Shown: one piece after another, positions 1,493 to 41,048 of the stretch
Numbering within the stretch: position 1 is the first letter of the stretch
How the letters are laid out: each line of letters starts with the position of its first letter
DNA from: a virus
Virus record (IMG/VR): IMGVR_UViG_3300017917_002269
Span: 1 to 43,505 of that record
DNA length: 43,505 nt
Reading direction: 5' to 3' (one strand)
Made by a program: the position numbers and the translations under genes
Notes under the pieces: generated by a model
Told to the model about the DNA's origin: nothing
Seen by the model: only the letters and a program-made list of their open reading frames with translations
Database searches by the model: none

Positions 1493-1500
1493 TATAAATA
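1493..1500 (-). promoter_or_regulatory. TATTTATA octamer upstream of tail sheath gene
   Basis: Coding-strand TATTTATA preceded by C, 28 nt before the sheath ATG, in the 56-nt gap between the gp15-like and gp18 genes. Proposed late promoter element. Confidence 0.6.
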
Positions 1501-1520
1501 GTAAATAGACCTTCAAAAAG

Positions 1521-2414
1521 TTATTGAACGTCGTTGATATCACTTACCACTTCGGTAGTAAAATTCACCCTGCCTTTTGAGAAAAACTTCTTAGTAGACA
1601 CTAATTCTTTGTTTATAGCATTGGGTATAATATAACCGTACATTTTAATGTTGAACGCCGTTCTTATCAAACGTTCTTCACCCTGATTTACTGTTTCGTT
1701 ATTGTTAAAACTATCAATCCGGGCACGGAATTTAAACCTACTAGGATCTCCCCAATAAGAATCTGATGCGTAGTTGATGGATTCAACTATTGAGTTCATC
1801 TGCTCAATATAATAAGTCCAGATTACACATTCGTAGTTTATAGTTACATAATCCGGAATAACTACTGCTTGGTAGGAGATTACAGGCTTTCTATTATTTA
1901 ATAAATCAAAATTAGAGTATGCATTTCCTTTTTGGTAAGATTTGCCTGCAATAGCATAATTTTGAGGATTGTTAGCATCTAGCTTATTTCCAACGACATA
2001 GGACTTATCTAAAGATGTTCTTTTGAACATAATGATAGGTGCCATAATTTTATCGTTCTTATCTCTATAGTACCCGTCTTTCTGAACTGCTTTCCATCTT
2101 TCAGGATTTCCGTAAATGATTGGTACTGGAATTGTGGTTCCGTTCTGATATACTTGAGGTTTAATTACGTTATTAAAGTAATACGCAATAGTTTCATCTA
2201 TATCTCCAATCCCTACTGTATATTCTTTAGCAGTATCTCCTTTAACTGAGATCTGTTCTGCACGGTAAGTCTTAGCAGTAGCTGGATCGTTTTGGTTGGC
2301 AAATACCGGCAATGGTACCACAGCATCGTTTGGATTATCCAACAATGGGGTTTGTTGAGAGATAGAAATTTCTCTCTGGTTCTTTGGTACCGGTTTTCTA
2401 ATCTTATCTGCCAT
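1521..2414 (-). CDS. gp15: Tail sheath terminator/stabiliser, T4 gp15-like
   Basis: 297 aa. Likely forms the ring that caps the finished tail and joins it to the neck. The similarity I recognise is to the gp15 family. A segment around residues 75-125 ('DETIAYYFNNVIKPQVYQNG', then 'VPIIYGNPERWKA') matches the 'fixed-size ring, imposed parameters, PI.YG...' start of gp15 proteins. A later block (about residues 180-230) reads 'VISYQAVVIPDYVTINYECV' then 'IWTYYIEQMNSIVESINY', corresponding to the strand-rich core with the '..Y.l.i.t.y..dm.qIvEqi.' pattern of gp15. T4 gp15 is 272 aa. It lies between the gp14-like gene and the sheath gene, and its start overlaps the preceding stop as TAATG, which suggests coupled translation. 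Assignment is by motif and order rather than by a database search. Confidence 0.75.
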   Translation of the reverse strand: MADKIRKPVPKNQREISISQQTPLLDNPNDAVVPLPVFANQNDPATAKTYRAEQISVKGDTAKEYTVGIGDIDETIAYYFNNVIKPQVYQNGTTIPVPIIYGNPERWKAVQKDGYYRDKNDKIMAPIIMFKRTSLDKSYVVGNKLDANNPQNYAIAGKSYQKGNAYSNFDLLNNRKPVISYQAVVIPDYVTINYECVIWTYYIEQMNSIVESINYASDSYWGDPSRFKFRARIDSFNNNETVNQGEERLIRTAFNIKMYGYIIPNAINKELVSTKKFFSKGRVNFTTEVVSDINDVQ

Positions 2415-2908
2415 TACATTCTTTCTTTGGTTATACCTAGTTTATCCGCAGGTACAAGGTGAGTTGAACAAATGATACTAATTGATGAACCAAATTGATT
2501 CAGACCTTCAGAATACGAGTATTCCGGTATCTTTCCTACAAAGTATTGGTTATCAACCACTCCATCAACTTCATAGTAGTTTTCATACCAGAAAATAACA
2601 TCTCCAACCTCTGGAAGAATCTGAAGGTCTCTTAAGTCCTCTAAGAAGAATGCAAAAGAAACTGTTCTGTTTAGATCTGGTCCAAATCCATTAGCTGCAT
2701 CCCAGTTCTGATCTCCTCTTGTTACTAAGCAGTTTAGTAAAGCTGGTTGACTAAAGAACTTGTCGATAGCTTCTCCATACATATTCGTCTGTGAAGCTCC
2801 TAAAGACACTTTATAATACCCTACCTGTTGAGTTATAATGTCGGGTAATAACTCACGGTTGATACTATTGATCAATAAAACGTCTCTCTGTCTTCCGAAT
2901 AATGCCAA
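2414..2908 (-). CDS. gp14: Neck/head completion protein, T4 gp14-like
   Basis: 164 aa, probably a head-tail connector (neck) component. Conserved-looking features are 'NMYGEAIDKFF' (about residues 42-52), an 'F.FFLEDLRDLQI.PEVGDVIFWYENYYEV' block in the middle, and 'FGSSISIICSTHLV' near the end. The 'YGE..., evGDii.y...yYev' pattern is what gp14-type neck proteins of cyanophages and related T4-like phages show. The start codon is TTG, not ATG. The first in-frame ATG is 42 codons later and would remove the conserved part. The TTG is preceded by GAGGAG with 8 nt between GGAG and the start. This is the best Shine-Dalgarno-like site in the window, although it also encodes the end of the previous protein. 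The next gene overlaps as TAATG. Confidence 0.65.
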   Translation of the reverse strand: MALFGRQRDVLLINSINRELLPDIITQQVGYYKVSLGASQTNMYGEAIDKFFSQPALLNCLVTRGDQNWDAANGFGPDLNRTVSFAFFLEDLRDLQILPEVGDVIFWYENYYEVDGVVDNQYFVGKIPEYSYSEGLNQFGSSISIICSTHLVPADKLGITKERM

Positions 2909-2922
2909 CTTTAGATCTCCTC
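2906..2922 (-). promoter_or_regulatory. Shine-Dalgarno-like site with TTG start
   Basis: Read on the minus strand: GAGGAGATCTAAAGTTG. GAGGAG ends the previous gene's coding sequence, TAA is its stop and TTG starts the gp14-like gene. Most other starts in the window have no purine-rich site at this distance. Confidence 0.5.
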
Positions 2923-3228
2923 AATTTTTTGTAATTGTTTGATACTATACTTAAATTTCTTTAAAGTAGGAATAGTAGATAATGCTTCTTTCTTAATCAA
3001 CTCAAAAGTTTCTTGTCCAGGTTTTACTGTAATTACTTTCAATTGGAGCAATCCTCTTGGATTAAGATCTTCTTTATCTGTTTTGTTGTTTACAACAGTA
3101 ACGTATCTCAAACCTCTAATCAACTGAGCAATATCAGTAACGTTGGTTTCGTCTGAGAATTCAACATATACCAAACTTTGGTACATTGAGTAGGTTACTT
3201 CATTTAGTAGGTTCGTTAACTGTACCAT
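2911..3228 (-). CDS. Small conserved-looking neck-region protein, unknown function
   Basis: 105 aa, no recognised family. It has an alternating strand/helix look: 'QSLVYVEFSDETNVTDIAQL', 'RYVTVVNN', 'LLQLKVITVKPGQE', then a helix with 'TFELIKKEALSTIPTLKKF'. That beta-alpha-beta-beta-alpha arrangement would fit a small ferredoxin-like fold, but this is inference. It is the first gene of a three-gene run (this gene, gp14-like, gp15-like) with 2 nt or less between genes, directly behind a TATTTATA octamer. Position between gp13-like and gp14-like genes suggests a role in head completion or tail joining. No signal peptide or membrane segment. Confidence 0.8.
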   Translation of the reverse strand: MVQLTNLLNEVTYSMYQSLVYVEFSDETNVTDIAQLIRGLRYVTVVNNKTDKEDLNPRGLLQLKVITVKPGQETFELIKKEALSTIPTLKKFKYSIKQLQKIEEI

Positions 3229-3229
3229 G

Positions 3230-4384
3230 TTATGCTATAAATATTGGTTGTGGAACCATGTTAAGTTCCTTCTGTTTATAATCAGCTTCTAAAGATCTTC
3301 TCTCAAGTAACTTTTCTCTTGAAGTTTCTTCCAAGTAAGCTCTTAATCTATCTAATAGCAAGTTCTTCTCTGCAGTAGCCGCAGTGATCAGATCTGCATG
3401 ATTCAAGGTAACTTCTGCTCCTGGGATTGGGACCGTGGTGTACTTACCTCTTACATACCCTAGCATCTCTTTTACTAATGAAAGTGTATATTCAAAAATC
3501 CACTGTCTTCCTATAGAATTAATTTGAGTGTAGTTAGGGTTAGTATAAGGAACATTGGAAACGTTAGAAACTAATGCTGATGAATTTGCCATTACTGGAT
3601 TGTTTCTTTCTGAGTTTTTAATATACTCAAAGAACATCCTTCCTTCGTTTACTGTTGGGATTGGGAATAATCTCAATCTATTATTTACTAATTCAAAAGA
3701 ATAGTTTGATTTTCTGATTTGATCGTTAAACTCAATAGCTTGAATCTTCTGAAGATCATAATTGATTGGCATCAGAAGGAAGTTAATTGCTGGTGAGTAG
3801 TTACCCCATCCAAAAGTATCTAGTAGGTTCATCATACCTGTACCTGTTCCTGCATAAGGATCAAAGTAACGAACGATGGCCGGCGGTGCTTCGTAGAATA
3901 CCCTCTTAATCTCAATCGTATCTCCAGGTGCTAAGGAAGCAGAAGAAGCTGCCCAAGCATTCATATCATAATCTTGAACTGAGGCTGTTGTATAGAAAGA
4001 ACCTGTATACCAAGTAACTGTTCCTCCAACTCCTGCTTCTTCTCCGTATTGAGCAGACATTCTGACAATGGATGCAAAGTTTGGTTGGATAACTGCATTA
4101 TTGAAGCTAGAGCCCGTAGAAGCTCCTTCCATTGAAAGATAATCCTGCCTTACTTTGAATGCATAGATTTCATTTCCGTAAGTAGTTACTGCTTCTTCAA
4201 AAGCTGTATAAAAGTTTGTAGCTTGTAATTCAACATCTACTAATGGGTATCCTAATCTTCTTGCACAGAAATCAGCTACCTTATCAGCATCTATCTGAAA
4301 TTGATAATCATAGTCGTAAAAACCGAATGGAGTATTTCCGGGAAAGAATGAGGATGAACCGGGCCAGATTTGAGCATTAGCCAT
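3230..4384 (-). CDS. gp13: Neck protein, T4 gp13-like head completion protein
   Basis: 384 aa. Likely the neck protein that binds the portal vertex after packaging. It shows 'VADFCARRLGYPLVDVELQA' at about residues 36-55, then a helix with 'FYTAFEEAVTTYGNEI', the pattern ('...lgyP.v.ve.t...l..a...A...y') seen near the N-terminus of neck proteins of marine T4-like phages. The middle carries 'FYEAPPAIVRYFDP' and 'RLRLFPIPTVNEGRMFFEYI', and the C-terminal 100 residues are helical and charged ('LLLDRLRAYLEETSREKLLE'). It is followed at once by the small unknown, gp14-like and gp15-like genes, the expected neck order. The last codons (ATATTTATAGCATAA) contain the octamer for the next transcription unit. 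Homology to gp13 is judged by pattern and order. Confidence 0.65.
   Translation of the reverse strand: MANAQIWPGSSSFFPGNTPFGFYDYDYQFQIDADKVADFCARRLGYPLVDVELQATNFYTAFEEAVTTYGNEIYAFKVRQDYLSMEGASTGSSFNNAVIQPNFASIVRMSAQYGEEAGVGGTVTWYTGSFYTTASVQDYDMNAWAASSASLAPGDTIEIKRVFYEAPPAIVRYFDPYAGTGTGMMNLLDTFGWGNYSPAINFLLMPINYDLQKIQAIEFNDQIRKSNYSFELVNNRLRLFPIPTVNEGRMFFEYIKNSERNNPVMANSSALVSNVSNVPYTNPNYTQINSIGRQWIFEYTLSLVKEMLGYVRGKYTTVPIPGAEVTLNHADLITAATAEKNLLLDRLRAYLEETSREKLLERRSLEADYKQKELNMVPQPIFIA
3236..3243 (-). promoter_or_regulatory. TATTTATA octamer before the neck operon
   Basis: Preceded by A; 7 nt before the ATG at 3228. It is embedded in the final codons of the gp13-like gene, encoding Ile-Phe-Ile. 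Confidence 0.55.
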
Positions 4385-4389
4385 ATACT

Positions 4390-4397
4390 AATAAATA
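4390..4397 (-). promoter_or_regulatory. TATTTATT variant octamer before gp13-like gene
   Basis: Coding-strand TATTTATT preceded by C, 5 nt before the ATG at 4384, in a 21-nt gap. Confidence 0.45.
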
Positions 4398-4405
4398 GTA
4401 TGGGC

Positions 4406-4900
4406 TTAAATGTAAGTTGCTACGAAAGTAAAATCTACGTTTGCTACGTTGCTTACAAAAGTAATTGATGTTGGGCTGCTAACAGTTGCACTTACTGTGG
4501 CTCCAGACTGTGAAGGAGCAATACCTAAGAATAAAGTTTGATTTAAGGTTTTACCTGTTAGGTCAAGCGGACTTACTGTTACGATAGAAGTATACGGAAG
4601 ACTTCCTCCTGTTTTACCTGCACCGGCAAATACTTTTAATATTCCGGCAACACCTACTACTGATCCGGAAGGAGTATAGTAACTCGTCATTCCAGAGGTT
4701 GATGTTGAGGTACTTGCATTACCTACCAAAGATCCAGTAAATCCATTCTGAGAAGAAACTGAACCGGTTAAGGTTAGTGAACCTGATAGGGTGATATCAT
4801 AAGCTGCCTGCTTTGTAAAAGCATCAATAGACTGAGTAACGTGTCCTACCTGAATTGTTGATCCGTTTGTTATACCTGTTTTTGATAATGTAAGTGCCAT
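4406..4900 (-). CDS. Small fibre-like virion protein
   Basis: 164 aa of Ser/Thr/Gly-rich, strand-forming sequence. The first 70 residues resemble the linker parts of the larger fibre proteins in this window ('SLTLTGSVSSQNGFTGSLVG'). The second half ('ILKVFAGAGKTGGSLPYTSI', 'VSATVSSPTSITFVSNVANV') looks like a compact beta domain ending in 'DFTFVATYI'. No catalytic motif, signal peptide or membrane segment. Likely a short fibre or fibre tip attached to the tail, by similarity and by position between the LamG array and the neck genes. It stands alone as a transcription unit between two octamers. Confidence 0.75.
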   Translation of the reverse strand: MALTLSKTGITNGSTIQVGHVTQSIDAFTKQAAYDITLSGSLTLTGSVSSQNGFTGSLVGNASTSTSTSGMTSYYTPSGSVVGVAGILKVFAGAGKTGGSLPYTSIVTVSPLDLTGKTLNQTLFLGIAPSQSGATVSATVSSPTSITFVSNVANVDFTFVATYI

Positions 4901-4904
4901 TTGT

Positions 4905-4912
4905 TATAAATA
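4905..4912 (-). promoter_or_regulatory. TATTTATA octamer before small fibre gene
   Basis: Preceded by A; only 4 nt from the ATG at 4900, in a 15-nt gap after the LamG array. Confidence 0.6.
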
Positions 4913-4915
4913 TTG

Positions 4916-5518: not shown

Positions 5519-5549
5519 ATTATAAACCGAATCTTGTTTTAGTTGCGTT
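5512..5549. repeat. 38-nt exact direct repeat, copy A
   Basis: Identical to 8321-8358. It covers the last 10 codons and stop of LamG copy 2, the 1-nt spacer and the first codons of LamG copy 1. One base on each side differs from the other copy. Confidence 0.85.
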
Positions 5550-6191: not shown

Positions 6192-6192
6192 A

Positions 6193-7134: not shown

Positions 7135-7138
7135 ATAG

Positions 7139-7146
7139 TATAAATA
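7139..7146 (-). promoter_or_regulatory. TATTTATA octamer inside LamG array
   Basis: Preceded by A; 4 nt before the ATG at 7134. It heads the unit of the 84-aa gene and LamG copies 3, 2 and 1. Confidence 0.6.
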
Positions 7147-7148
7147 TT

Positions 7149-8327: not shown

Positions 8328-8358
8328 ATTATAAACCGAATCTTGTTTTAGTTGCGTT
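8321..8358. repeat. 38-nt exact direct repeat, copy B
   Basis: Identical to 5512-5549. It covers the 3' end of LamG copy 5, the 1-nt spacer and the first codons of LamG copy 4. Confidence 0.85.
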
Positions 8359-9735: not shown

Positions 9736-9739
9736 AACT

Positions 9740-10459: not shown

Positions 10460-10461
10460 GA

Positions 10462-12015: not shown

Positions 12016-12045
12016 AAGTTTATCCTTTCCCTATCCAGGATCTAT

Positions 12046-12053
12046 TATAAATA
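12046..12053 (-). promoter_or_regulatory. TATTTATA octamer before fibre gene at 12015
   Basis: Preceded by A, 30 nt before the ATG at 12015. The leader holds a purine-rich AGGGAAAGGAT, one of the few Shine-Dalgarno-like stretches in the window, about 8 nt from the start. Confidence 0.6.
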
Positions 12054-12057
12054 TAAA

Positions 12058-13457: not shown

Positions 13458-13460
13458 AGT

Positions 13461-17746: not shown

Positions 17747-18136
17747 TTAGCAAGTTGCGACTGTTACCTCTTTCGATAATTGAACATTCCCTTGAAGTAA
17801 TCTGGTTGTAAAAGATCCGCTAGATATTTCTAAGTCATATACCCCTGTATCAAAGGTTAACAAAGAGGATGAGATAGCCGAAATATAAATCCCGATCGAT
17901 CCAGATGTTGGAGGAGTGGTACCGTAAGACCCTGAGAAATTCAATCCTGTTCCGTCTGGCTGTAAGGAACTAGAAAGGCAAATATACGCTATCGGTGAAC
18001 CGGTTGAAGGTCTAATCTGTAGCTTTCCTGAATATCCTGTAAGGTCTACTGCTACTCCGTTTGAATCTTTGTATTGTATTTCAACTTGGTAGGTTGCTCC
18101 TTGTTCAATTAATAAGTTATATTTTCCTGCAGCCAT
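17747..18136 (-). CDS. Small beta-sandwich virion protein, unknown function
   Basis: 129 aa. Opens 'AAGKYNLLIEQGATYQVEIQ' and 'DSNGVAVDLTGYSGKLQIRP', then 'VYDLEISSGSFTTRLLQGNV' near the end, finishing 'QLSKEVTVATC'. This opening ('.y.l.ieqGatf...i.w.D..G.pvdLtGy.a..qiR') is common in small phage proteins next to baseplate and fibre genes, and resembles the N-terminal part of upper-baseplate proteins of the BppU kind. I would not go further than that. It heads the operon that includes the giant fibre and LamG copies 9, 8 and 7, just after a terminator and an octamer. Confidence 0.8.
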   Translation of the reverse strand: MAAGKYNLLIEQGATYQVEIQYKDSNGVAVDLTGYSGKLQIRPSTGSPIAYICLSSSLQPDGTGLNFSGSYGTTPPTSGSIGIYISAISSSLLTFDTGVYDLEISSGSFTTRLLQGNVQLSKEVTVATC

Positions 18137-18143
18137 ATTTTAT

Positions 18144-18151
18144 TATAAATA
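18144..18151 (-). promoter_or_regulatory. TATTTATA octamer between terminator and fibre operon
   Basis: Preceded by A, 7 nt before the ATG at 18136. It lies directly downstream (in the transcription direction) of a hairpin terminator. Confidence 0.65.
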
Positions 18152-18154: not shown

Positions 18155-18185
18155 GAATAAACAAGAAAGGCTCCACGTGGGAGCC
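18155..18185 (-). terminator. Rho-independent-type terminator after 18216-18470 gene
   Basis: On the minus strand GGCTCC-CACGT-GGAGCC forms a 6-bp GC-rich stem (18169-18185) followed by TTTCTTGTTTATTC. It closes the two-gene unit that starts at 18894. Confidence 0.75.
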
Positions 18186-18215
18186 TGTCTGTAATTTGCA
18201 AATTTAAGGTACTAT

Positions 18216-18470
18216 TTAAGCTTGGGCAGGAATGAATTCACCTTTCTCAAGGTCAATTGATCCGTTACCGTACTTTTCAGAAAGTTCTTTTCCGAAAGCC
18301 TGCTCTTCTTCTTTAAGTTTATTGAAATAATCAACAACTTCGTTTTTACGAGCTTCAATTTGTAACTTAGTAATCTCAAGATTACCTAATTCATTTGCAA
18401 CTGCAGCATTGTCCTGCTGGATCTTGGTAAGTTTTTCAACTTCCTCAACTGTTAACTTTGTATTTTCCAT
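18216..18470 (-). CDS. Small coiled-coil protein, unknown function
   Basis: 84 aa, almost wholly helical and charged. 'LTVEEVEKLTKIQQDNAAVA' then 'LEITKLQIEARKNEVVDYFN' and 'EEEQAFGKELSEKYGNGSID' give heptad-like spacing of Leu/Ile/Val. It ends with 'LEKGEFIPAQA'. Proteins of this kind are frequent in phage late regions, often with no known role. It is followed by a strong terminator. No signal peptide. Confidence 0.82.
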   Translation of the reverse strand: MENTKLTVEEVEKLTKIQQDNAAVANELGNLEITKLQIEARKNEVVDYFNKLKEEEQAFGKELSEKYGNGSIDLEKGEFIPAQA

Positions 18471-18905: not shown

Positions 18906-18913
18906 TATAAATA
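18906..18913 (-). promoter_or_regulatory. TATTTATA octamer before gene at 18894
   Basis: Preceded by A; 11 nt before the ATG, in the 37-nt gap behind the 909-aa protein gene. Confidence 0.6.
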
Positions 18914-22373: not shown

Positions 22374-22381
22374 TATAAATA
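22374..22381 (-). promoter_or_regulatory. TATTTATA octamer before gene at 22366
   Basis: Preceded by A; 7 nt before the ATG. The bases from the octamer to the ATG are the same as at the site before 18136 (TATTTATAATAAAATATG versus TATTTATAATAAAATATG). Confidence 0.65.
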
Positions 22382-26717: not shown

Positions 26718-26725
26718 AATAAATA
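26718..26725 (-). promoter_or_regulatory. TATTTATT variant octamer before gene at 26713
   Basis: Coding-strand TATTTATT preceded by A, 4 nt before the ATG; the gap between genes is only 12 nt. Confidence 0.45.
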
Positions 26726-27349
26726 TTAGAATACGTTTATTAAAATACCATTCTGAAAGTCTAGGTTTTGGAGTCCGGGGGGATTACCTGCTATGTTAAC
26801 GATACCTGTATACCCTGTAACTGGAGTAACAGGTGCGGTTGTTATTATATTACCGCCAGAATCTACTTCTAAATTTGCTACCGATGTCCCTGTAAATGCT
26901 GATGCGTTGTTATATGCAGGTAGTGACATTTGTAGGCTATGCATACTCCAGTTAGCAACTTCAGCAGTACTACCGGCATTTGTACCTTTAAGTATTCTAA
27001 TTCTGTTTTGATATAGGTCAATAAATGAAGCAGAAGTATAGGTTCCTCCTGGAGCATTAAATCCTATTTGACCTCCTTCACTACTATTATCACGTGCTCC
27101 TAATGTTAAGGTATTTTCAGATGGACCTAAACTAGATGTTCCTATAGCAGCACTAGCTGTTATTAATACGTTTTGATTTAAAGTATTAATATAGGATGCT
27201 GTAGAAGCAAATGATGCGGTTAATGCTCTTGTTGCATAAGAACCTGTTCCTGAGAAAGAACCGGTAAATGAACCTGTGAATGAGGATGCAGTTACGTTTA
27301 GTAATAACGCACTAGATCCCGAAGTGATTACTTTTTTCCAAGATGGCAT
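26726..27349 (-). CDS. Short fibre-like protein with WKKVI N-terminus
   Basis: 207 aa. N-terminus 'MPSWKKVITSGSSALLLNVT' is nearly the same as in the 420-aa fibre gene at 29144, so the two probably dock at one site. GSFTGSFTGS linkers follow ('ASSFTGSFTGSFSGTGSYA'), then a unit 'AAIGTSSLGPSENTLTLGAR' and a C-terminal section 'NLEVDSGGNIITTAPVTPVT' ending 'LQNLDFQNGILINVF'. It stands alone with a 73-nt upstream leader. Likely a short tail fibre; no enzymatic signature. Confidence 0.82.
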   Translation of the reverse strand: MPSWKKVITSGSSALLLNVTASSFTGSFTGSFSGTGSYATRALTASFASTASYINTLNQNVLITASAAIGTSSLGPSENTLTLGARDNSSEGGQIGFNAPGGTYTSASFIDLYQNRIRILKGTNAGSTAEVANWSMHSLQMSLPAYNNASAFTGTSVANLEVDSGGNIITTAPVTPVTGYTGIVNIAGNPPGLQNLDFQNGILINVF

Positions 27350-27422: not shown

Positions 27423-27430
27423 TATAAATA
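27423..27430 (-). promoter_or_regulatory. TATTTATA octamer with long leader
   Basis: Preceded by C; 73 nt before the ATG at 27349, just downstream of the stop codon of the 75-aa gene. Confidence 0.55.
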
Positions 27431-27881: not shown

Positions 27882-29144
27882 TTAACTGTATATATAAATA
27901 TCCCCGCCTGTTGTAGTCCACATGTTACCAGATCCATTAGTACTTCCACCAAAGGTTGGAGCAGCAGATGGAGCAGATGCTTGATCAGCTTTCACTGTTA
28001 CCATGTATTCGTCCGGAGTAGCTGTGGTAGCTCCAGCTCCTAAACTTCCTGTAACTGCAAAACGACCGAAAGTTCCGGTAGAGGTAGCTTCTAGGTAAAA
28101 TGCTGTTCCCACTCCTCCAGCGGCATTTTGAATAATAATACCTCCGTCAGCTAACGTAGTTGATCCTGAAGCTAATAACATAAATTTATCAGCAACTAGA
28201 ACACTAGTTGTATTTGTAAATGAAGCAGTACCTGCAACGTTTAAATCTCCAGCTACTGTAACGTTTCCTGTGGTTGAGATTGCTGCAAAGTTTGCAGTAC
28301 CTGTAAACGTTGGTGATCCAGCAAATACTAAAGCACCAGTTCCTGTTTCGTCTGTTACGGCAGATGCTAAGTTAGCAGAAGAAGGTGTTGCTAAGAAAGT
28401 AGCTATACCTGTTCCTAATCCAGATACACCGGTTGAAATAGGTAGTCCTGTCGCATTAGTTAATGTAGCACTTGAAGGTGTACCTAAAGCTCCTCCGTTT
28501 ACTACTACTGATCCAACACTTCCTATGTTAGTTCCTAAAGCGGTTGCAACTCCTGTTCCTAACCCGGAAACACCTGTTGAAATAGGTAGTCCTGTTGCGT
28601 TTGTTAGTGTTGCTGAAGATGGAGTTCCTAATACACCTCCGTTTACTACGAAAGAACCGGCTGATCCAATTGCAGTACCTAAAGCGGTTGCAACACCGGT
28701 ACCTAATCCAGATACATCTGTTGAGATAGCTACGGCTCCTGCTTGGATAGTTGCTACACCGGAACCGTTAATTAAGATATCTCCAGTAACACCTGCCCAG
28801 GAATGAGAGCTAAATTGAGAGATTGTTGCATATTTACTAGTACCGTCACTAATAAATACTTGGGTAGTGCCGATAACAGGGGTTAACTGTGTAACAGGAA
28901 AGGTAGCAGTTACACCGGTTAATCCGGAACCGTTTCCAATGAAAGAACCTGAGAAAGAACCTGATGCAGATAATCCTGTAGCGCCAGTTGTTGCTACGAT
29001 GTTACCGGTACCGTTGATCGCTGTTGTTGATAGGTTAGAGGTTCCTCCTCCAATCACTACTTGTCCTGATGTTAAATTGCTTACCTGTAAAGATGCTAGG
29101 TTAGCAGAACTTCCAGAGACTATTACTTTTTTCCAACTTGCCAT
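27882..29144 (-). CDS. Fibre-like protein with exact-period internal repeat and WKKVI N-terminus
   Basis: 420 aa. 'MASWKKVIVSGSSANLASLQ' shares the N-terminal dock with the 207-aa fibre gene. After a 'GATGLSASGSFSGSFIGNGS' linker comes a repeat of 48 residues: 'GLGTGVATALGTNIGSVGSV' then 'VVNGGALGTPSSATLTNATG' and 'LPISTGVS'. Two copies plus a partial one are present. 'GGALGTPSSATLTNATGLP' is a widespread phage fibre repeat. The C-terminal part ('VAGDLNVAGTASFTNTTSVL', 'MLLASGSTTLADGGIIIQNA', 'TPDEYMVTVKADQASAP') resembles a fibre end and closes with 'GNMWTTTGGDIYIYS'. The final codons contain the octamer for the next unit. Confidence 0.85.
   Translation of the reverse strand: MASWKKVIVSGSSANLASLQVSNLTSGQVVIGGGTSNLSTTAINGTGNIVATTGATGLSASGSFSGSFIGNGSGLTGVTATFPVTQLTPVIGTTQVFISDGTSKYATISQFSSHSWAGVTGDILINGSGVATIQAGAVAISTDVSGLGTGVATALGTAIGSAGSFVVNGGVLGTPSSATLTNATGLPISTGVSGLGTGVATALGTNIGSVGSVVVNGGALGTPSSATLTNATGLPISTGVSGLGTGIATFLATPSSANLASAVTDETGTGALVFAGSPTFTGTANFAAISTTGNVTVAGDLNVAGTASFTNTTSVLVADKFMLLASGSTTLADGGIIIQNAAGGVGTAFYLEATSTGTFGRFAVTGSLGAGATTATPDEYMVTVKADQASAPSAAPTFGGSTNGSGNMWTTTGGDIYIYS
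27893..27900 (-). promoter_or_regulatory. TATTTATA octamer in last codons of fibre gene
   Basis: Preceded by A; 20 nt before the ATG at 27872 and inside the codons for Ile-Tyr-Ile at the 3' end of the 420-aa gene. Confidence 0.5.
28408..28735. repeat. 144-nt tandem repeat inside fibre gene
   Basis: Units start at 28408, 28552 and 28696, exactly 144 nt (48 codons) apart, with the third partial. Similarity is high but not perfect, and many differences are synonymous, so the protein repeat is under selection or is being homogenised. Confidence 0.85.
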
Positions 29145-29157
29145 AATTTGTGTTACT

Positions 29158-29165
29158 TATAAATA
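29158..29165 (-). promoter_or_regulatory. TATTTATA octamer before 420-aa fibre gene
   Basis: Preceded by A; 13 nt before the ATG at 29144, in a 22-nt gap after the 1058-aa fibre gene. Confidence 0.6.
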
Positions 29166-29166
29166 T

Positions 29167-33032: not shown

Positions 33033-33045
33033 AAATGTATTTACT

Positions 33046-33053
33046 TATAAATA
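33046..33053 (-). promoter_or_regulatory. TATTTATA octamer between capsid terminator and phoH
   Basis: Preceded by C, 13 nt before the phoH ATG. It directly follows a strong hairpin terminator in the transcription direction, supporting a promoter role. Confidence 0.7.
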
Positions 33054-33056
33054 GAA

Positions 33057-33087
33057 TATAAAAAAAAAGCCTGGATTTCTCCAGGCT
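33057..33087 (-). terminator. Terminator after the major capsid gene
   Basis: On the minus strand AGCCTGG-AGAAAT-CCAGGCT is a 7-bp perfect stem with a 6-nt loop, then a run of nine T. The stem is 26 nt downstream of the capsid stop. It is the strongest terminator in the window. Confidence 0.92.
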
Positions 33088-33113
33088 CTTCTTTAAGATT
33101 TTGATGGTTTATC

Positions 33114-34754
33114 TTACAAAGTGTTCAAGCCACTTACGTAGATTTTTCCATAAAATTCGGGCCTCACCATCTTCTTAGCGTATCTAGTCAAAAGACCTTT
33201 TCTTGGTACGAAAGTATCAGGATCATACACCAAAGGAGTCATGATCAACGGAATGTAAGGAGCAAATACAGCACCAGTTTCCAAGAATTGACTACCTTTG
33301 AAGCCCATCAAGATGGTGTTTTCCTTCATGTAAGGGTTCTTGTAGATGGTGTATCTGTTGTTGATTTGACCCATTTTCTGTACACCGAAAGCGTAGCTAG
33401 CTACAGTAACGTCACCGTTAGAGGTAGAAGCAAAGCCTGGGATACTTTCCAAGATGGTAGCAACTGTAGGAGATACTACGCAGAAGTTAGCACCACCACG
33501 CAAAGTTCTTTGGTGAATGATGTTAGACAATTTCTGCATCTTAGTTCCTAAAGTCTGGAACCATTGACCTTGAGTGTTGTAGAAACCTAAGCTCTGATCA
33601 AAAGCAGTGCTAGCTGCGTTGATAGCTTGGTTGTTAATAGCAGACCAGTACTCAGTACCAGCAGCAGCTGATTCGATCAACATGTCAAGGATTTCTAAGT
33701 CGATTTCCAAAGAAATGTACTCAGACATTACAGCAGTCAATTCAGCTTCAGCATCCAAAGAATGGTAAGCGTTCAAATCTTGAGCGAATTCAGGAGTCCA
33801 TTGTGCTTTCAATTTCTTGGTCTTAGCAACGATGGCTTCAGATCTCATTTGAACGTTAATCTGAGGGATAACGATTTCAGAAGCAGACTCACCGTTAGGT
33901 ACAGCGTAAGCAGCACCTGCTTCGAAGTCACCTCTTGCGTTGTCTTTAGTTAACTTGTTGTACTCAACCAACCAAGTAGAATCTACTACAGGAGAAGATC
34001 CAGCTGAACCGGTGAAGAAGAAGTTAATTACGTTACCGCTCAAAGTGGTGAACTCTTGCAACAAGGTAGAAACACCGAATGTTGAACCAGAAGTTGCGAT
34101 AAAACCTCTAACCGCTAAAGGATCTAAATCAGAAGAGATAGAAGCAGTAGGGATAGAAACTTTCTTAATTCTACCAGCAACAGCTGAAGCAGAATAATCA
34201 GAGTTAAAGTTTACTTCAGCGAAAGAAGCAGAAGCCACAGCGTAGCTAGCAGCAGATGAGCTTACAGAAGCTGAGAATTGGTTAGTAGAGTAGGTGAAAC
34301 GACCAGCTCCGTATAAAGCACCAGTTGAGGTGTTACCGAAGTTCTCTGATGGGGTACCATACATAGAGTTACCAGAGGTAAAAGGATTCTTAGTAGTTCC
34401 GTATTGGAAATCCAAGAAGAATACAAGACCTGAAGGAAGGTTCATAGGCTGAACTGAAACGAATTCTTTAGCAGCGATTTGACCGAACACCTTACGCACT
34501 AAAGGTAAAGCGATACCAGCCCACTGCTCACCAGTACCGGTTGTAAAGCTAGCACCAGTTCCAGTGTTAGATTGCTCGATAACCAACTGTTTAGCTTGGT
34601 TTTCAAGAATCATAGACATGTTATTTTTTTCAGTTTCGTTGCCCATACCTTCTAAAAGGCCAGTAGCACCCCACTTTTTTGCTAATCTAGCAGCGTCAGA
34701 TTGCAAACTCTGCCAGGGGTTAGCAGATTCGAGTAATGATTGTACGTTTGACAT
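33114..34754 (-). CDS. gp23: Major capsid protein, T4 gp23-like
   Basis: 546 aa (T4 gp23 is 521). HK97-fold coat protein of the T4 type. The N-terminal region with 'MSNVQSLLESANPWQSLQSD' and 'ATGLLEGMGNETEKNNMSMI' looks like the removable prohead segment. Possible gp21-type cut sites ([IL]-x-E) include 'LLE' at 33-35 and 'ILE' at 49-51. Further marks are 'LPLVRKVFGQIAAKEFVSVQ' then 'PMNLPSGLVFFLDFQYG' (about 81-118), the conserved gp23 'RKVF...iAkelVgVQPM' block, and a C-terminal 'APYIPLIMTPLVYDPDTFVP' then 'RKGLLTRYAKKMVRPEFYGK'. It follows the scaffold gene and ends at a strong terminator, all as expected for a highly expressed gene. No octamer lies in front, so it should depend on the scaffold's leader. 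Confidence 0.95.
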   Translation of the reverse strand: MSNVQSLLESANPWQSLQSDAARLAKKWGATGLLEGMGNETEKNNMSMILENQAKQLVIEQSNTGTGASFTTGTGEQWAGIALPLVRKVFGQIAAKEFVSVQPMNLPSGLVFFLDFQYGTTKNPFTSGNSMYGTPSENFGNTSTGALYGAGRFTYSTNQFSASVSSSAASYAVASASFAEVNFNSDYSASAVAGRIKKVSIPTASISSDLDPLAVRGFIATSGSTFGVSTLLQEFTTLSGNVINFFFTGSAGSSPVVDSTWLVEYNKLTKDNARGDFEAGAAYAVPNGESASEIVIPQINVQMRSEAIVAKTKKLKAQWTPEFAQDLNAYHSLDAEAELTAVMSEYISLEIDLEILDMLIESAAAGTEYWSAINNQAINAASTAFDQSLGFYNTQGQWFQTLGTKMQKLSNIIHQRTLRGGANFCVVSPTVATILESIPGFASTSNGDVTVASYAFGVQKMGQINNRYTIYKNPYMKENTILMGFKGSQFLETGAVFAPYIPLIMTPLVYDPDTFVPRKGLLTRYAKKMVRPEFYGKIYVSGLNTL

Positions 34755-34783
34755 TGTATTAATGTGTAGTAATTTTTATTTTT

Positions 34784-35752
34784 TTATAAGCCTGCAAGTT
34801 TTCTCATTCTTTCGAATACCGGATTAACATCTACCACAGGCTGTTTTGGTGAAGTTCCGACGGGTTTTGAAGCAAACCCTTTGCTTTCTCTTACCAACTC
34901 TTTCTTAGCAACTCTTTCAAGTCCTTCGTTTAGAGTTTCGAATACCAACTTAACTTCTTTTACTGATTCAGCTTTGTCGAAAGCAGTTAATACTTTCACT
35001 TTCTGAGCTTCAGTTAGGTTTTTAGCCTTGAAAATTTTGTTGGTGTAAAGAAGTTTAGAATTTAACAAGTTAATCTCGTGTAATTCTGACTTCAATGTGT
35101 TAATAGTCTCGAGAGCTTCAGCTAATTCTGATTCCATGGCTTTCATCTTCTTAGTCTTTTCCTCATCCTCTTCTGCTTTCTTAGCTTCTTTCATTGGCTC
35201 TTCTTCGTGAGACACTTCAGCAATTTCCTCTTCTGCAGATACTTCTTCTTCAGCACCCATTTCAGGCTCTTCCATTTCAGCACCAGCTTCATCTTCCATT
35301 CCTTCGTGACCAGCTTCTAATTCGCCAGCTTCGATCATTTCGTCTACCACTTCTTCAATAAATTTCTTCAAGTCTTCTTCGGACATTTCTTCAAGATCAA
35401 CTTCAACCTCTTCTTCTTCTTTTTCACCTTCTTCAGATCCTTCTTCTTCCTCTTCTTTCTCCTCTTCTTCGGCAATATTGCCATGAGCAGTCGGAGTAGT
35501 TTTGGGGTCGTTCATAAGATCTTCACTTTCTTCAAGCTCTCTTAAAAGCTCTTCGATTTCAGCGTCGGTGGTGTCTAAAGCTTCGGTCTTAACTTCTTCT
35601 TCTTCTTCCATGTCCATCATTTTCTTTTCGAACATCGATTTCAAATGTGGTGTGAAAGCCTCCTCTAATGCAGCTTTTGCATTAGTGATAGCGACTTCCT
35701 TTACAGCTTTTGCATCAGCAATAGCCTCTTTTAACAATTCTCTGTTTGTCAT
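34784..35752 (-). CDS. gp22: Prohead scaffold protein, T4 gp22-like
   Basis: 322 aa, the internal core that shapes the prohead and is later degraded by the protease. It begins 'MTNRELLKEAIADAKAVKEV' and has a long Glu-rich, repeat-like central stretch (about residues 48-210). A C-terminal coiled-coil region follows with 'LLNSKLLYTNKIFKAKNLTE' and 'QKVKVLTAFDKAESVKEVKL', a segment typical of gp22-family scaffolds, then 'VVDVNPVFERMRKLAGL' at the end. T4 gp22 is 269 aa; the extra length is in the acidic part. Order protease, scaffold, capsid is that of T4. It has a 101-nt structured leader and shares its message with the capsid gene. Confidence 0.87.
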   Translation of the reverse strand: MTNRELLKEAIADAKAVKEVAITNAKAALEEAFTPHLKSMFEKKMMDMEEEEEVKTEALDTTDAEIEELLRELEESEDLMNDPKTTPTAHGNIAEEEEKEEEEEGSEEGEKEEEEVEVDLEEMSEEDLKKFIEEVVDEMIEAGELEAGHEGMEDEAGAEMEEPEMGAEEEVSAEEEIAEVSHEEEPMKEAKKAEEDEEKTKKMKAMESELAEALETINTLKSELHEINLLNSKLLYTNKIFKAKNLTEAQKVKVLTAFDKAESVKEVKLVFETLNEGLERVAKKELVRESKGFASKPVGTSPKQPVVDVNPVFERMRKLAGL

Positions 35753-35853
35753 TTTCCTAATAATAGTTTTTTTGGGAAATACGCTTATTAATAAGAGCGT
35801 AATAATTTTTTAGAGCAATAAGTGGTACCACATTAGATCGTGGTACATACAAA
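35753..35853 (-). promoter_or_regulatory. Structured 5' leader of scaffold-capsid operon
   Basis: Between the octamer and the ATG at 35752. On the minus strand GTACCAC-GATCTAAT-GTGGTAC gives a 7-bp stem-loop near the 5' end, and ACGCT-cttattaata-AGCGT gives a second about 25 nt further on. It is the longest leader seen here and belongs to the most highly expressed virion genes. It could protect the message or control translation. Confidence 0.5.
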
Positions 35854-35861
35854 TATAAATA
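35854..35861 (-). promoter_or_regulatory. TATTTATA octamer for scaffold-capsid operon
   Basis: Preceded by C; placed between the terminator of the protease gene and the 101-nt scaffold leader. Confidence 0.7.
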
Positions 35862-35868
35862 GCTACTA

Positions 35869-35909
35869 TTTTACCAAAAATAAAAAACCCTCCTTTTTTA
35901 AGGGAGGGT
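35869..35909 (-). terminator. Terminator after prohead protease gene
   Basis: On the minus strand ACCCTCC, a 9-nt loop (CTTAAAAAA) and GGAGGGT form a 7-bp stem (35887-35909), followed by TTTTTATTTTT. A smaller GGGAT-AGC-ATCCC hairpin (35917-35929) sits just upstream. Confidence 0.88.
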
Positions 35910-35937
35910 CCGTCAAGGGATGCTATCCCAAGAAAGG

Positions 35938-36540
35938 TTAGAATATTGGACAGCTACCATGAGCACATAAGATCTCTCTTATAATCTCATTAGCTTTGTC
36001 ATATTTATTTACGGTTTTTGTTAACCCCTCATGCAAAGGAGTCATCCAAGAACCCGGATTTGATGGAGTAGATACAAAATCCCAACATAGTAATTCAAAG
36101 TCCTCTTGAACTTCTAATGTCTCTCCCATCTGTCTTACTGAGCCCATCCCTCTAGATGATACACCAACGGTAATACCTGAACCAATTAAGGCTTGTAGTA
36201 TGTTTCCGGATGGGGTTGGAAGGATTTCAATCCTACCCATAATATGATCACCATCCCACCAAATATCTTTGATGTTATGACATACATTTTTAAGGTTAAT
36301 TACAGTAGATTCGGGGTGATCTAGTTCACCAACTGCTCTATTCTCTTTAACGGAACTCATGTACTTATTGATTTCCCTATCCCAAATCTTTTTACTGTAG
36401 TACCTTCCATTACCGTTCTTTATCTCAGCGGTTGCTAAAACACCTTCTACCAAAGGAAGACCAGAACCATCCTTTGCTTCTGTTAATTTAAAAGCTCGGG
36501 GTTGAAAGGATATAGTCTCAATAAGTAAACTCTTATCCAT
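35938..36540 (-). CDS. gp21: Prohead protease, T4 gp21-like serine protease
   Basis: 200 aa maturation protease that cleaves scaffold and capsid N-termini inside the prohead. Motifs: 'VEGVLATAEIKNGNGRYYSK' (31-50), 'GELDHPES' with His75 as the likely catalytic His, 'HIMGRIEILPTPSGNILQAL' (99-118), 'GVSSRGMGSV' with Ser128/129 as the likely nucleophile, and 'LLCWDFVSTPSNPG' with Asp154. This His...Ser...Asp order is that of gp21/HK97-type prohead proteases. T4 gp21 is 212 aa, so the length fits. It sits right after the 493-aa gene (TAATG overlap) and before a strong terminator, upstream of the scaffold it would process. The end 'ILCAHGSCPIF' has two Cys of unknown purpose. Confidence 0.93.
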   Translation of the reverse strand: MDKSLLIETISFQPRAFKLTEAKDGSGLPLVEGVLATAEIKNGNGRYYSKKIWDREINKYMSSVKENRAVGELDHPESTVINLKNVCHNIKDIWWDGDHIMGRIEILPTPSGNILQALIGSGITVGVSSRGMGSVRQMGETLEVQEDFELLCWDFVSTPSNPGSWMTPLHEGLTKTVNKYDKANEIIREILCAHGSCPIF

Positions 36541-38021: not shown

Positions 38022-38025
38022 ATGT

Positions 38026-38033
38026 TATAAATA
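38026..38033 (-). promoter_or_regulatory. TATTTATA octamer before 493-aa core-type gene
   Basis: Preceded by C; 4 nt before the ATG at 38021, in the 20-nt gap after the small basic gene. Confidence 0.6.
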
Positions 38034-38041
38034 GGTATTGT

Positions 38042-38266
38042 TTATTTCCAAAGATCTTTATACACCATACCCTTGGCTGCTTTACGTACTTTATTTTTAT
38101 TGACAAGCTTCCAGCCCATCTTTAAGTAGTAATTACGTGCGGCACCTTGAGCATTCTTGTTTGGATTAAAAGCGTATGGTGTGTTGTAACTACCAGCTGC
38201 TCCAGAGGTTGACTCTTCTTTAAGCCACTGCTTAAGCTTCTCCTTCAACTGTGCTCTGGTTGCCAT
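38042..38266 (-). CDS. Small basic protein in head module, unknown function
   Basis: 74 aa, Lys-rich: 'ATRAQLKEKLKQWLKEESTS', 'YNTPYAFNPNKNAQGAARNY', 'KVRKAAKGMVYKDLWK'. I recall similar short proteins ('...tPyAF...') next to the protease/portal genes in environmental T4-like phages. Size and location between portal and protease resemble gp67/gp68 of T4, small prohead core proteins, but I see no sequence evidence for that. Its start overlaps the previous stop (TAATG), so it is made with the 277-aa protein. Confidence 0.75.
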   Translation of the reverse strand: MATRAQLKEKLKQWLKEESTSGAAGSYNTPYAFNPNKNAQGAARNYYLKMGWKLVNKNKVRKAAKGMVYKDLWK

Positions 38267-39099
38267 TAAAGTTCATTAAGTAGTTCGTAGTATTGTAATA
38301 AGTTAATGATACAATCGTTAGTAACCTTTTCTGTTTTACCTAATGGTTGAACGTACTTTAAAACTTCTGTAAGTTTAATTTTTAGTACTTCGTCTTCAAG
38401 TTTAGCTGTTTTAGCTTCCAGTAAACCTTGTACTTCTACAATTTTTGTATTGTAATAATGTTTCAACTTATCTGTATTATCAACCGCTGTGACAACCTCT
38501 CTTAACACTTCTTTTTGCTGTGTTGTTAAATGATCATACTTCTCATTAAACTTATCTAACAGCATTTTATATGTTAAGATACGTAGGTCTTTGCTATACC
38601 CTTTGTATTCTTCTAGAAGTTCATCCGATTGTACTACTGTTGGTGCTTTAGTTAGGTGTTCAAGAAGTGTAATCTTATTGTTAATTACTGTTTCTGGAGC
38701 TACCTTCTCTGAGGATTGATTTTCGATTAGGTTATTTAATGCTGCGAATACTTTGTAATTACCTACTTTAGCTTTAAAGAAATTTTCTACGTTGTAGTTT
38801 TCTTTGATTTCTCTAACTAGGTTGTACTTTTGCTTTCTAATCTCAGTCCTCTTTAGTTTTGTAGATGTCTCTACTAATGTATTAATAACCATCTCAGCCT
38901 TAGCTTCGGTTAAGTTTTTATAAGCTCCTAACTGTTCGTATAGCTTATATTCTTTTCCTAATTCAGTATTAACAAAATACTTCTTCAGTATATTAATAGC
39001 GGTAGAGTTCTTCCCCTCTAAAGTATCAGAGGTGATCTGCCTTACTAGAAGTTCAAAAAGAAGTCCCGTATTCTTAAACTTTGAATGTTTTATTGACAT
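38266..39099 (-). CDS. Helical protein between portal and protease, unknown function
   Basis: 277 aa, almost fully helical and rich in Lys, Glu and Leu: 'KNTGLLFELLVRQITSDTLE', 'EAKAEMVINTLVETSTKLKR', 'YKVFAALNNLIENQSSEKVA', 'HYYNTKIVEVQGLLEAKTAK', ending 'DCIINLLQYYELLNEL'. No catalytic motif, signal peptide or TM. By location it may be a prohead core component or a portal partner. I recall proteins with the same 'SIKHSKFKNTGLLFELLVRQ' opening in related environmental phage genomes, always unnamed. Preceded by a TATTTATT variant octamer. Confidence 0.78.
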   Translation of the reverse strand: MSIKHSKFKNTGLLFELLVRQITSDTLEGKNSTAINILKKYFVNTELGKEYKLYEQLGAYKNLTEAKAEMVINTLVETSTKLKRTEIRKQKYNLVREIKENYNVENFFKAKVGNYKVFAALNNLIENQSSEKVAPETVINNKITLLEHLTKAPTVVQSDELLEEYKGYSKDLRILTYKMLLDKFNEKYDHLTTQQKEVLREVVTAVDNTDKLKHYYNTKIVEVQGLLEAKTAKLEDEVLKIKLTEVLKYVQPLGKTEKVTNDCIINLLQYYELLNEL

Positions 39100-39115
39100 C
39101 TATCGATGGTTTTAT

Positions 39116-39123
39116 AATAAATA
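39116..39123 (-). promoter_or_regulatory. TATTTATT variant octamer before 277-aa gene
   Basis: Coding-strand TATTTATT preceded by A; 16 nt before the ATG at 39099, in the 35-nt gap after the portal gene. Confidence 0.45.
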
Positions 39124-39134
39124 TGTGTTAAATG

Positions 39135-41021
39135 TTATTCCCTAATTTGTCTTTCGTCTAACAAGCTTTCTCCGTTCTTCTGCGATTCGAAAACCAGCTT
39201 CTTTCGCATTGGTATTTCATCTAGAAGTCTAGAGTGTTTTGATAACTGTCTCTTGGTAGTCTCCATTGTAAACGGTGAGGTATTATCTCTTCCATACCCT
39301 TGTTGATCATCAGTTTTCATTGCTTTCTTACCTAATCTATCCATGCCTAAAGGATCATTTGTAGTATCAATATTTGAAGCTTTTTCTTCTGGTCTACCTA
39401 CAGGTCGATCTCTATCATATCCAGCAGGTACTGCTCCAGGTCTATCGTATACTCTACCTTTGCCGTAAGATGTAGCAATGTCATGAGGAGTTCCGTAAGA
39501 TTCTCCTGTCTCTAAAGGATCGTTTCCTTCGTTTTCAATCTGAGACATTCTGAATTTGCGTTTAGCATCTTGTAGGATTAGCTCTCTCATCTCATCGTAT
39601 TGATCTGTGCTTAAGTGGAAGATGTTATCATAAATCCAATCAGAAGAAATTAATTGAGAATCCATCATTGATTGAGCTAACTCAATTTTCTCCTTCATCA
39701 ACATTACTCTTTCCTGATCGTAAATGATAGAAGGGGTTGTTAATGATAATTCAAAGTTAGTTAATGATTCGTCTCTATAGCCCTGAATGTATAAATGCAC
39801 AAAAGCAATCTTGTAAAGCTCAGAAACCATAATTCTCTGGATCTTCTCTACCGTTCTACCAAAGCGAATATCTTCTGCAGCTAAGGTAGCTTTACCTTGT
39901 AGCTTTTCATCATACCCTAAGAATGCTTTTGGAATTCTTAAAGCAGCAAATAACTTATCTCTTAAGTAATTTACGTCAGTGATACCGTCATACTGTAAAC
40001 CTCCTAGAGTATCAATCTTAGTTGCAGTATCATTACCTCTTACTGGAACGTAAAAATCTTCCATTAAGTTCTGCATGTTGTACTTTAAGTTATATTCCCC
40101 TGTTTGCTGGTCAATATAAGGAGTACGCTTCATTTTAGAGATAGCTTTCTGCATAAAGTTTTCTACCTCTGCAGGAGGAATACCACCTACGTTCATATAG
40201 AAAATACGCTTCTCAGGAGCTCTTACAATTCTGTGAATTAACATAGCATCTTCCATCAAAGTATACTGCTTAAATAATTTACGGGCAGGTTCAATGTAAG
40301 AACGGCCGTAAGGTAAGTAGTTTACATCTGTTAGTAATCGGAAGTGAGCTATTTCGTAATTATCAAAGTAAATTGACTTAGAATCACTCTGGTTTGGAGT
40401 CTTAAAGTATCCGTAAGTATCTGCAGCCAATCCATCAGCATCGTATCTAAATCTAACCGCAGTTGGATTTTCTGGGTCATAACTCTCCTGTCTTTCTATG
40501 TTAAAAGCTGAGAATGGAATAACGTTGTAAACACCGTACTTCTCTGAAGCTTCTAATTTCAAAAAGAAGTCTCCGTATTTGCACATATTTCTAATCCACC
40601 AACTTAAATTAAACTCAATATTCAATACATCGTAATAAAGGTTGTAAAGAATCTTTTGAATATTCTCATCAGAGGATCTAATATGCAAAACCTCCCCCAT
40701 ATCGTTCTTAAGGGTAGATTCTTCTGATAGGATATCTAAAGCAGAAGCAATAATTGCATCTGTATCCATTGCATCATACTCAGAATATAATTGAGTTCTT
40801 AATGTTTGGTAATTAAATGAAGATTGATATCCGTAGAGAGATGTAGGTGAAGTAGTGTAAATCCTATTGTATCTAGCCATCAAGGAGTTATTTTCTAACT
40901 CTCCTGACATTTGAATTTGGTTTGTATCTGCTACAGATAACTGATTACCTCCGACGTTCCGAATAATAACATCTGTGGAAAAAAGTCTACGTAATCTTGA
41001 AAATATACTAGTATCAGCCAT
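39135..41021 (-). CDS. gp20: Portal protein, T4 gp20-like
   Basis: 628 aa (T4 gp20 is 524). Forms the dodecameric ring at the packaging vertex. Recognised parts: 'YDAMDTDAIIASALDILSEE' (about 80-100), 'FNLSWWIRNMCKYGDFFLKL', 'IVRAPEKRIFYMNVGGIPPA' (about 265-285, a hallmark gp20 block), 'NYLRDKLFAALRIPKAFLGY' and 'AAEDIRFGRTVEKIQRIMVS'. These match the crown, wing and stem region of gp20-type portals. The extra 100 residues are a low-complexity C-terminal tail (about 495-600). It sits between terminase and core genes as in T4. Its own octamer lies 19 nt upstream. Confidence 0.95.
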   Translation of the reverse strand: MADTSIFSRLRRLFSTDVIIRNVGGNQLSVADTNQIQMSGELENNSLMARYNRIYTTSPTSLYGYQSSFNYQTLRTQLYSEYDAMDTDAIIASALDILSEESTLKNDMGEVLHIRSSDENIQKILYNLYYDVLNIEFNLSWWIRNMCKYGDFFLKLEASEKYGVYNVIPFSAFNIERQESYDPENPTAVRFRYDADGLAADTYGYFKTPNQSDSKSIYFDNYEIAHFRLLTDVNYLPYGRSYIEPARKLFKQYTLMEDAMLIHRIVRAPEKRIFYMNVGGIPPAEVENFMQKAISKMKRTPYIDQQTGEYNLKYNMQNLMEDFYVPVRGNDTATKIDTLGGLQYDGITDVNYLRDKLFAALRIPKAFLGYDEKLQGKATLAAEDIRFGRTVEKIQRIMVSELYKIAFVHLYIQGYRDESLTNFELSLTTPSIIYDQERVMLMKEKIELAQSMMDSQLISSDWIYDNIFHLSTDQYDEMRELILQDAKRKFRMSQIENEGNDPLETGESYGTPHDIATSYGKGRVYDRPGAVPAGYDRDRPVGRPEEKASNIDTTNDPLGMDRLGKKAMKTDDQQGYGRDNTSPFTMETTKRQLSKHSRLLDEIPMRKKLVFESQKNGESLLDERQIRE

Positions 41022-41040
41022 TGTGTAGTGTTAATATAAG

Positions 41041-41048
41041 TATAAATA
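41041..41048 (-). promoter_or_regulatory. TATTTATA octamer before portal gene
   Basis: Preceded by C; 19 nt before the ATG at 41021, in the 28-nt gap after the terminase stop. Confidence 0.6.

Follow-up and report, generated by a model that had tools for sequence, protein, structure and literature searches.

A conserved octamer before virion genes of Far-T4 phages as a probable late promoter, with a candidate gp55-related sigma factor

The window analysed here is a 43.5-kb IMG/VR record (IMGVR_UViG_3300017917_002269, 43,505 nucleotides (nt)) with every gene on the minus strand, and its gene starts are repeatedly preceded by the octamer TATTTATA. It would seem very likely that TATTTATA is the late promoter of Far-T4 phages and that it is read by a phage sigma factor related to gp55 of T4. 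An earlier note on this DNA had proposed a late promoter, and that proposal is supported by a motif with one orientation, enrichment at late genes, conservation at orthologous junctions, A residues fixed in position downstream, a distinct promoter at early genes and a gp55-like sigma gene in the relatives. Together these observations argue strongly, from sequence comparison, for a late-promoter role; from them we infer transcription from the motif, its start point and its reading by the gp55-like sigma.

Fifteen exact copies of TATTTATA and three of the variant TATTTATT precede gene starts in the coding orientation, as the earlier note had claimed, and all 18 were located site by site (Table 1). 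The base before the octamer is A or C at 18/18 sites, and the distance to the start is 4-30 nt, with two more sites at 73 and 101 nt. The octamer occupies 17 of the 20 junctions with a gap of more than 5 nt, the exceptions being, as had been reported, those before the genes starting at 18470, 25702 and 34754. Its supposed absence where genes overlap or abut does not hold strictly: two octamers fall within the 3' end of the upstream gene, and at one of these junctions the gap is 1 nt. At the three places where the order was said to be terminator, octamer and gene, a hairpin was indeed found upstream of the octamer. In the whole window TATTTATA occurs 22 times on the coding (minus) strand and twice on the plus strand, a total of 24 compared with 6.6 ± 3.0 in dinucleotide shuffles, where 0/100 reached 24; six exact copies lie inside genes. 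An octamer lies within 60 nt of the start in 12 of the 42 genes, whereas shuffled upstream sequences give 0.41 and never more than 4 in 2000 shuffles; the orientation near these starts is 12 forward to 0 reversed. A scan for host sigma-70 promoters gave no excess above shuffles.

Judged by the similarity of its gp23-type capsid protein, the window holds the virion genes of a Far-T4 phage, a group that is common in freshwater and seawater. The nearest cultured phages by capsid identity are Flavobacterium phage immuto (56%), Microcystis phage Mel-JY01 (50%) and Rhodothermus phage RM378 (36%), all ahead of the T4-like vibriophages (~25%), which places the window among the Far-T4 phages. The relatives compared were 80 loci found through the capsid protein and a second set fetched through the sigma gene, with gene starts called mechanically. 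In an unbiased ranking of upstream 8-mers, TATTTATA was in the top three in the window, in immuto, in Mel-JY01, in a 166-kb relative with 84% capsid identity (G001) and in the relatives G003, G004 and G005. Across the 80 capsid relatives ATATTTAT ranked third and TATTTATA fourth, the two higher words being rarer and deriving from one conserved leader, that with the RNA hairpin described below. Run on T4 as a control, the same method returned TATAAATA, the T4 consensus, which is not the upstream motif here.

The orientation of the octamer in the relatives depends on where it lies. At the capsid-gene loci of the 80 relatives, upstream octamers number 259 forward and 39 reversed, compared with 64 and 70 inside genes; at the sigma-gene loci the corresponding counts are 127 and 28 upstream and 45 and 43 inside. 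Codon bias was considered as a cause of the octamers and ruled out, since they show no strand bias within genes. In the relatives the octamer is concentrated in structural-gene blocks, and orthologous junctions are mostly all-or-none: it is present in 48/50 for the gene starting at 39099, 20/22 for that at 18136 and 36/51 for the portal gene, compared with 0/77 for the capsid gene and 0/66 for the protease gene. A 3-nt periodicity of distances, seen in six genomes, was not repeated in the 80 relatives.

With the limits of the structural blocks set by the analyst from annotation and gene layout, the octamer in immuto is found at 19/61 genes within the blocks compared with 14/156 elsewhere (p 1e-4), and in G001 at 34/107 late genes compared with 6/115 others (p 2e-7). 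At the early genes of the relatives stands a different signal, in which TTTG or GTTTG lies some 20 nt upstream of TATCTTTAGG or TATATTTAG. This matches the promoter of the Bacteroidota primary sigma factor, TTTG / TAnnTTTG, with its -7 element at -12 to -5 (PMC6847099). The -33 TTTG and -7 TAnnTTTG are absent at octamer sites, and close variants of them stand at early genes of G001 and G003. The two kinds of promoter are alike in having an AT-rich -7 element and in belonging to the same host group, the Bacteroidota type driving the early genes of these same phages, but the late octamer lacks the -33 TTTG and is out of register with TAnnTTTG. Two of six capsid relatives in bacterial genome collections were in Flavobacteriales bins, and with the Bacteroidota-type early promoters of the relatives this makes a Bacteroidota host likely for the window phage. 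A 2015 survey of Far-T4 phages did not detect the T4 core genes for transcription regulation and concluded that transcription may differ (PMC4360716). The region of G001 at ~83-97 kb (locus L093) contains short early-type open reading frames, many with Bacteroidota-type promoters upstream; before some of them TATCTTTA ends 3 nt before the ATG, so early messages may likewise be nearly leaderless.

The geometry of the sites resembles that of a -10 element. In 226 distinct aligned sites the stretch 45 to 9 nt ahead of the octamer carries little information, and hence no -33/-35 element, and an A directly precedes the octamer in 92% and the consensus reads [A/C]TATTTATA-A-N-A-AA. Counted from the octamer start, offsets +11 and +12 retain their A's independent of the distance to the ATG: AA at offset +11 is found in 53-87% of sites with the ATG 14-45 nt away, compared with 3-34% at offsets 13-21. 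Either the register of the T4 late octamer, -13 to -6 (PMC1524935), or the -12 to -5 of the Bacteroidota element would put the conserved A's at -2 to +1, consistent with a T4-like start ~5 nt past the octamer. Where the ATG follows after 4 nt, its A is itself at offset +12, close to the expected start of transcription. Such messages would have no leader or almost none, and the earlier note's prediction to this effect for the closest sites agrees with the geometry. SD-like (Shine-Dalgarno-like) sequences precede 3/42 window genes compared with 32/45 T4 genes in the region examined, where the T4 late octamers are 14-28 nt from the ATG; those of the window are mostly 4-30 nt away.

In T4 the late promoter TATAAATA is served by the sigma factor gp55, the co-activator gp33 and the clamp gp45. 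The T4 and Far-T4 elements are alike in being 8-bp, -10-like, without a -35 element and placed before late virion genes, and in the direct reading they agree at 6/8 positions, only the two central bases differing (AA in T4, TT here). The start codon here is also often only 4 nt away. The same sense is seen in RM378, which has genes on both strands: its top motif, TTATTTAA/TATTTAAA, precedes 28 and 26 of 146 genes. This element shares with TATTTATA the TATTTA core, the sense, closeness to the ATG (in RM378 most often 6 nt), the downstream A-run and a sigma of the same family; it differs in its final bases, AA rather than TA, and in that the RM378 genes are scattered over both strands. Divergent genes of RM378 have overlapping copies of the motif in common, and in divergent pairs (loci L127-L129) shared overlapping palindromes of the TTATTTAAATAA type might act as promoters placed back to back. 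Differences between phages have a precedent amongst the T4-like phages: Aeh1 has the late octamer CTAAATA together with a diverged gp55, and those of RB49, KVP40 and S-PM2 begin with A or T (PMC1524935). These retain TAAATA, whereas the octamer described here has other central bases and comes from phages of a distant branch, the Far-T4 phages. Most simply, TATAAATA, TATTTATA and TTATTTAA would represent drift of one -10-like element.

The gp55-like sigma factor that the earlier note had thought might lie elsewhere in the genome is found in relatives and is missing from the window, itself a fragment. A search with sigma region 2 gave matches in RM378 and in T4 (gp55, E 0.004), and in six records it also picked up one conserved frame of 238-245 amino acids. 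Iterative searching links into one family the proteins of G001, G003, G004, G006, G008 and G009, immuto gp118, Rm378p020 of RM378 (22-24% identity) and a protein of the megaphage LR756508; Mel-JY01 also encodes a member, and in IMG/VR 598 stretches encode relatives, the best 80 of which were kept. Both immuto gp118 and Rm378p020 are annotated as hypothetical. The family matches Pfam Sigma70_r2 at E 2.6e-4, slightly below the curated cut-off, and its best PHROG is phrog_234, late sigma factor (E 0.011), colinear over residues 3-108. Over the N-terminal 100 residues, profile-profile comparison by hhalign with nine gp55 proteins gave a probability of 89% (E 2e-6); a search of the profile against PDB sequences gave no match. 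As the full-length model was of low confidence (predicted local distance difference test (pLDDT) 70, Foldseek E 0.17), the N-terminal domain was modelled alone (pLDDT 81, predicted template-modelling score 0.74). Nearly all its top Foldseek matches are sigma region 2, the best being 4lup, region 2 of sigma-E on its -10 element (probability 0.92, template-modelling score 0.63 by target length). Like gp55 this is a small sigma factor, whose region 2 homology runs in line with the N-terminal part of gp55; at ~230-260 amino acids it is longer than gp55 (~185), and its C-terminal half is conserved yet not recognised by Pfam. These lines are individually modest, but jointly they make a persuasive case that the protein is a remote homologue of T4 gp55. 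In immuto the sigma gene is a short way ahead of the baseplate genes, and in G001 it has this place too, among genes whose sizes follow in the same order. It has no octamer upstream in 13/13 loci checked, as expected of a factor made before the late phase. For the gp45-type clamp, PF02916 matched only T4's own, and as it misses Mel-JY01, whose record annotates clamp-loader genes, it may overlook divergent clamps.

As a late promoter, TATTTATA would be a -10-like element without a -33/-35 element, used in the ordinary reading direction by host RNA polymerase with a phage sigma remotely related to T4 gp55. Transcription would be expected to start ~5 nt downstream, on the conserved A's, such that sites 4-7 nt from the ATG give leaderless or nearly leaderless mRNAs and farther sites short leaders; early genes would be served by the host primary-sigma promoter. 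That the element is instead a true mirror, the T4 octamer bound in reverse, was suggested by the earlier note because TATTTATA is the exact reverse complement of TATAAATA. However, TATAAATA is near-palindromic and two central A-to-T changes suffice in the direct reading, which makes an inversion unnecessary; RM378 TTATTTAA and Mel-JY01 ATATTTAT form a direct-orientation series, T4-like phages such as Aeh1 already vary, and a sigma reading its -10 element backwards would require opposite loading of the polymerase. We regard the mirror as very improbable indeed. The octamer could also act in RNA, as a signal for translation initiation or processing immediately ahead of the start codon, such as a cleavage site or an A/U-rich site for the ribosome or S1, and the many sites just 3-20 nt from the ATG, the rarity of SD-like sequences and the help that A-rich upstream regions give to initiation in Flavobacterium (PMC6847099) would fit this. 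This alternative, also raised in the earlier note, is nevertheless disfavoured and appears unlikely: the octamer is missing from most early genes, whose messages the same ribosomes translate, it comes after terminators, and it stands anywhere from 1 to ~50 nt from the ATG, with the downstream A's fixed relative to the octamer and not to the ATG. Moreover, the known determinants of initiation in Flavobacterium are A at -3, -6, -12 and -13, rather than this octamer.

It might equally be asked whether a late promoter would be read by another phage sigma, such as the extracytoplasmic function (ECF)-like proteins of G001 (87367-87903) and RM378 (Rm378p144), since Pfam regions 2 and 4 are recognised in both and a motif related to the octamer occurs in RM378. 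This, too, seems a poor prospect, as in G003, G004, G006, G008 and G009 the only protein picked up by the region 2 search is the gp55-like one, and in immuto there is none, although all of these have the octamer; the annotated ECF-like sigma of RM378 was rejected as the reader because it is not conserved in most relatives. This second sigma (phrog_1740) lies at L093:7367-7903 in G001 and L129:28329-28928 in RM378. Several observations weigh against a late promoter read by the gp55-like sigma. The major capsid gene has no octamer of its own (0/77 orthologs). In the window the octamer at 35854 can serve the capsid gene. In 34/40 relatives, however, the gene preceding the capsid gene has no octamer within 260 nt, so that there the capsid operon must be read from farther upstream or via another signal. 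Outside the structural blocks, ~9% of immuto genes still have an octamer. For the N-terminal model the Foldseek E-values exceed 0.3 (0.31 for the first match), and the gp55 structure 7d7c is outside the 50 best matches. The sigma gene lies outside the window, presumably because the latter is a fragment; the motif with no sigma gene detected occurs in G005 (136 kb) and in two shorter records, G002 and G007, which are perhaps incomplete; in LR756508, which encodes the sigma relative, the 50 kb around the capsid gene contain no TATTTATA upstream of genes.

In the records examined, the candidate sigma for this variant of the T4 late promoter was previously unrecognised, and the library of papers searched contained no relevant paper on TATTTATA as a phage promoter and nothing on late promoters in Flavobacterium phages or on Mel-JY01. 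The window and its relatives supply both halves of a testable late system, promoter and candidate sigma, together with host-type early promoters. This would permit prediction of late genes in uncultured genomes and offers, within the T4 superfamily, a case in which the promoter co-varies with the sigma (TATAAATA, TATTTATA, TTATTTAA); it also prompts the question of leaderless late mRNAs. More speculatively, and with considerable doubt, the Far-T4 late programme may be separate from that of T4, with a gp55-descended sigma bearing a new C-terminal domain, TATTTATA used without clamp or gp33, and many leaderless late mRNAs; if so, such mRNAs would suit hosts without Shine-Dalgarno initiation.

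Table 1. Octamers, terminator-like hairpins and identified virion genes of the window. E, expectation value of the Pfam match; fractions give relatives with the motif at the orthologous gene.
Feature	Positions	Strand	Remarks
TATTTATA	1493..1500	-	28 nt before gene starting 1464
TATTTATA	3236..3243	-	7 nt before gene starting 3228; within 3' end of upstream gene
TATTTATT	4390..4397	-	5 nt before gene starting 4384; 21/42
TATTTATA	4905..4912	-	4 nt before gene starting 4900
TATTTATA	7139..7146	-	4 nt before gene starting 7134
TATTTATA	12046..12053	-	30 nt before gene starting 12015
TATTTATA	18144..18151	-	7 nt before gene starting 18136; terminator upstream; 20/22
Intrinsic-terminator-like hairpin	18168..18186	-	Upstream of octamer 18144; -14.8 kcal/mol, z -4.0
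TATTTATA	18906..18913	-	11 nt before gene starting 18894
TATTTATA	22374..22381	-	7 nt before gene starting 22366
TATTTATT	26718..26725	-	4 nt before gene starting 26713
TATTTATA	27423..27430	-	73 nt before gene starting 27349
TATTTATA	27893..27900	-	20 nt before gene starting 27872; within 3' end of upstream gene
TATTTATA	29158..29165	-	13 nt before gene starting 29144
TATTTATA	33046..33053	-	13 nt before gene starting 33032; terminator upstream; 20/54
Intrinsic terminator after major capsid gene	33061..33094	-	-20.8 kcal/mol, z -5.7
Major capsid protein, gp23-like	33114..34754	-	Pfam Gp23, E 1.1e-73; query for relatives
TATTTATA	35854..35861	-	101 nt before gene starting 35752, upstream neighbour of major capsid gene
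Terminator-like hairpin	35888..35904	-	Upstream of octamer 35854
Prohead protease, gp21-like	35938..36540	-	Pfam Peptidase_S77, E 3.5e-31
TATTTATA	38026..38033	-	4 nt before gene starting 38021; 12/51
TATTTATT	39116..39123	-	16 nt before gene starting 39099; 48/50
Portal protein, gp20-like	39135..41021	-	Pfam Portal_T4, E 2e-65
TATTTATA	41041..41048	-	19 nt before portal (gp20-like) gene starting 41021; 36/51
Terminase large subunit, gp17-like	41050..42627	-	
TATTTATA	43356..43363	-	65 nt before gene starting 43290; 16th exact site, missing from first list

The gene next to the capsid gene on its upstream side has a leader with a conserved RNA hairpin, UUACGNUU...AAUAANCGUA, at 35743-35803 on the minus strand of the window and in 37 relatives (alignment A6). 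The hairpin shows strong covariation, with 24 cells changed on both sides and 0/500 shuffles as high, and is followed by UUUCC, which is able to pair with the SD-like AGGAAA beside the AUG. Rfam gave no match in the window. Possibly the hairpin is a translational control element of the scaffold-capsid operon.

Between 4916 and 14156 on the minus strand lies a run of tandem paralogous proteins with a common 'NGL..LDA..SY' start, few of them preceded by octamers; the members tested match phrog_8510 / phrog_24074 (virion structural protein or unknown). Three neighbouring genes on the same strand, starting at 27349, 29144 and 32343, encode products with a common N-terminal motif (xWKKVIxSGSSA..., xILVSGSIP...), perhaps a shared segment for attachment to the virion.

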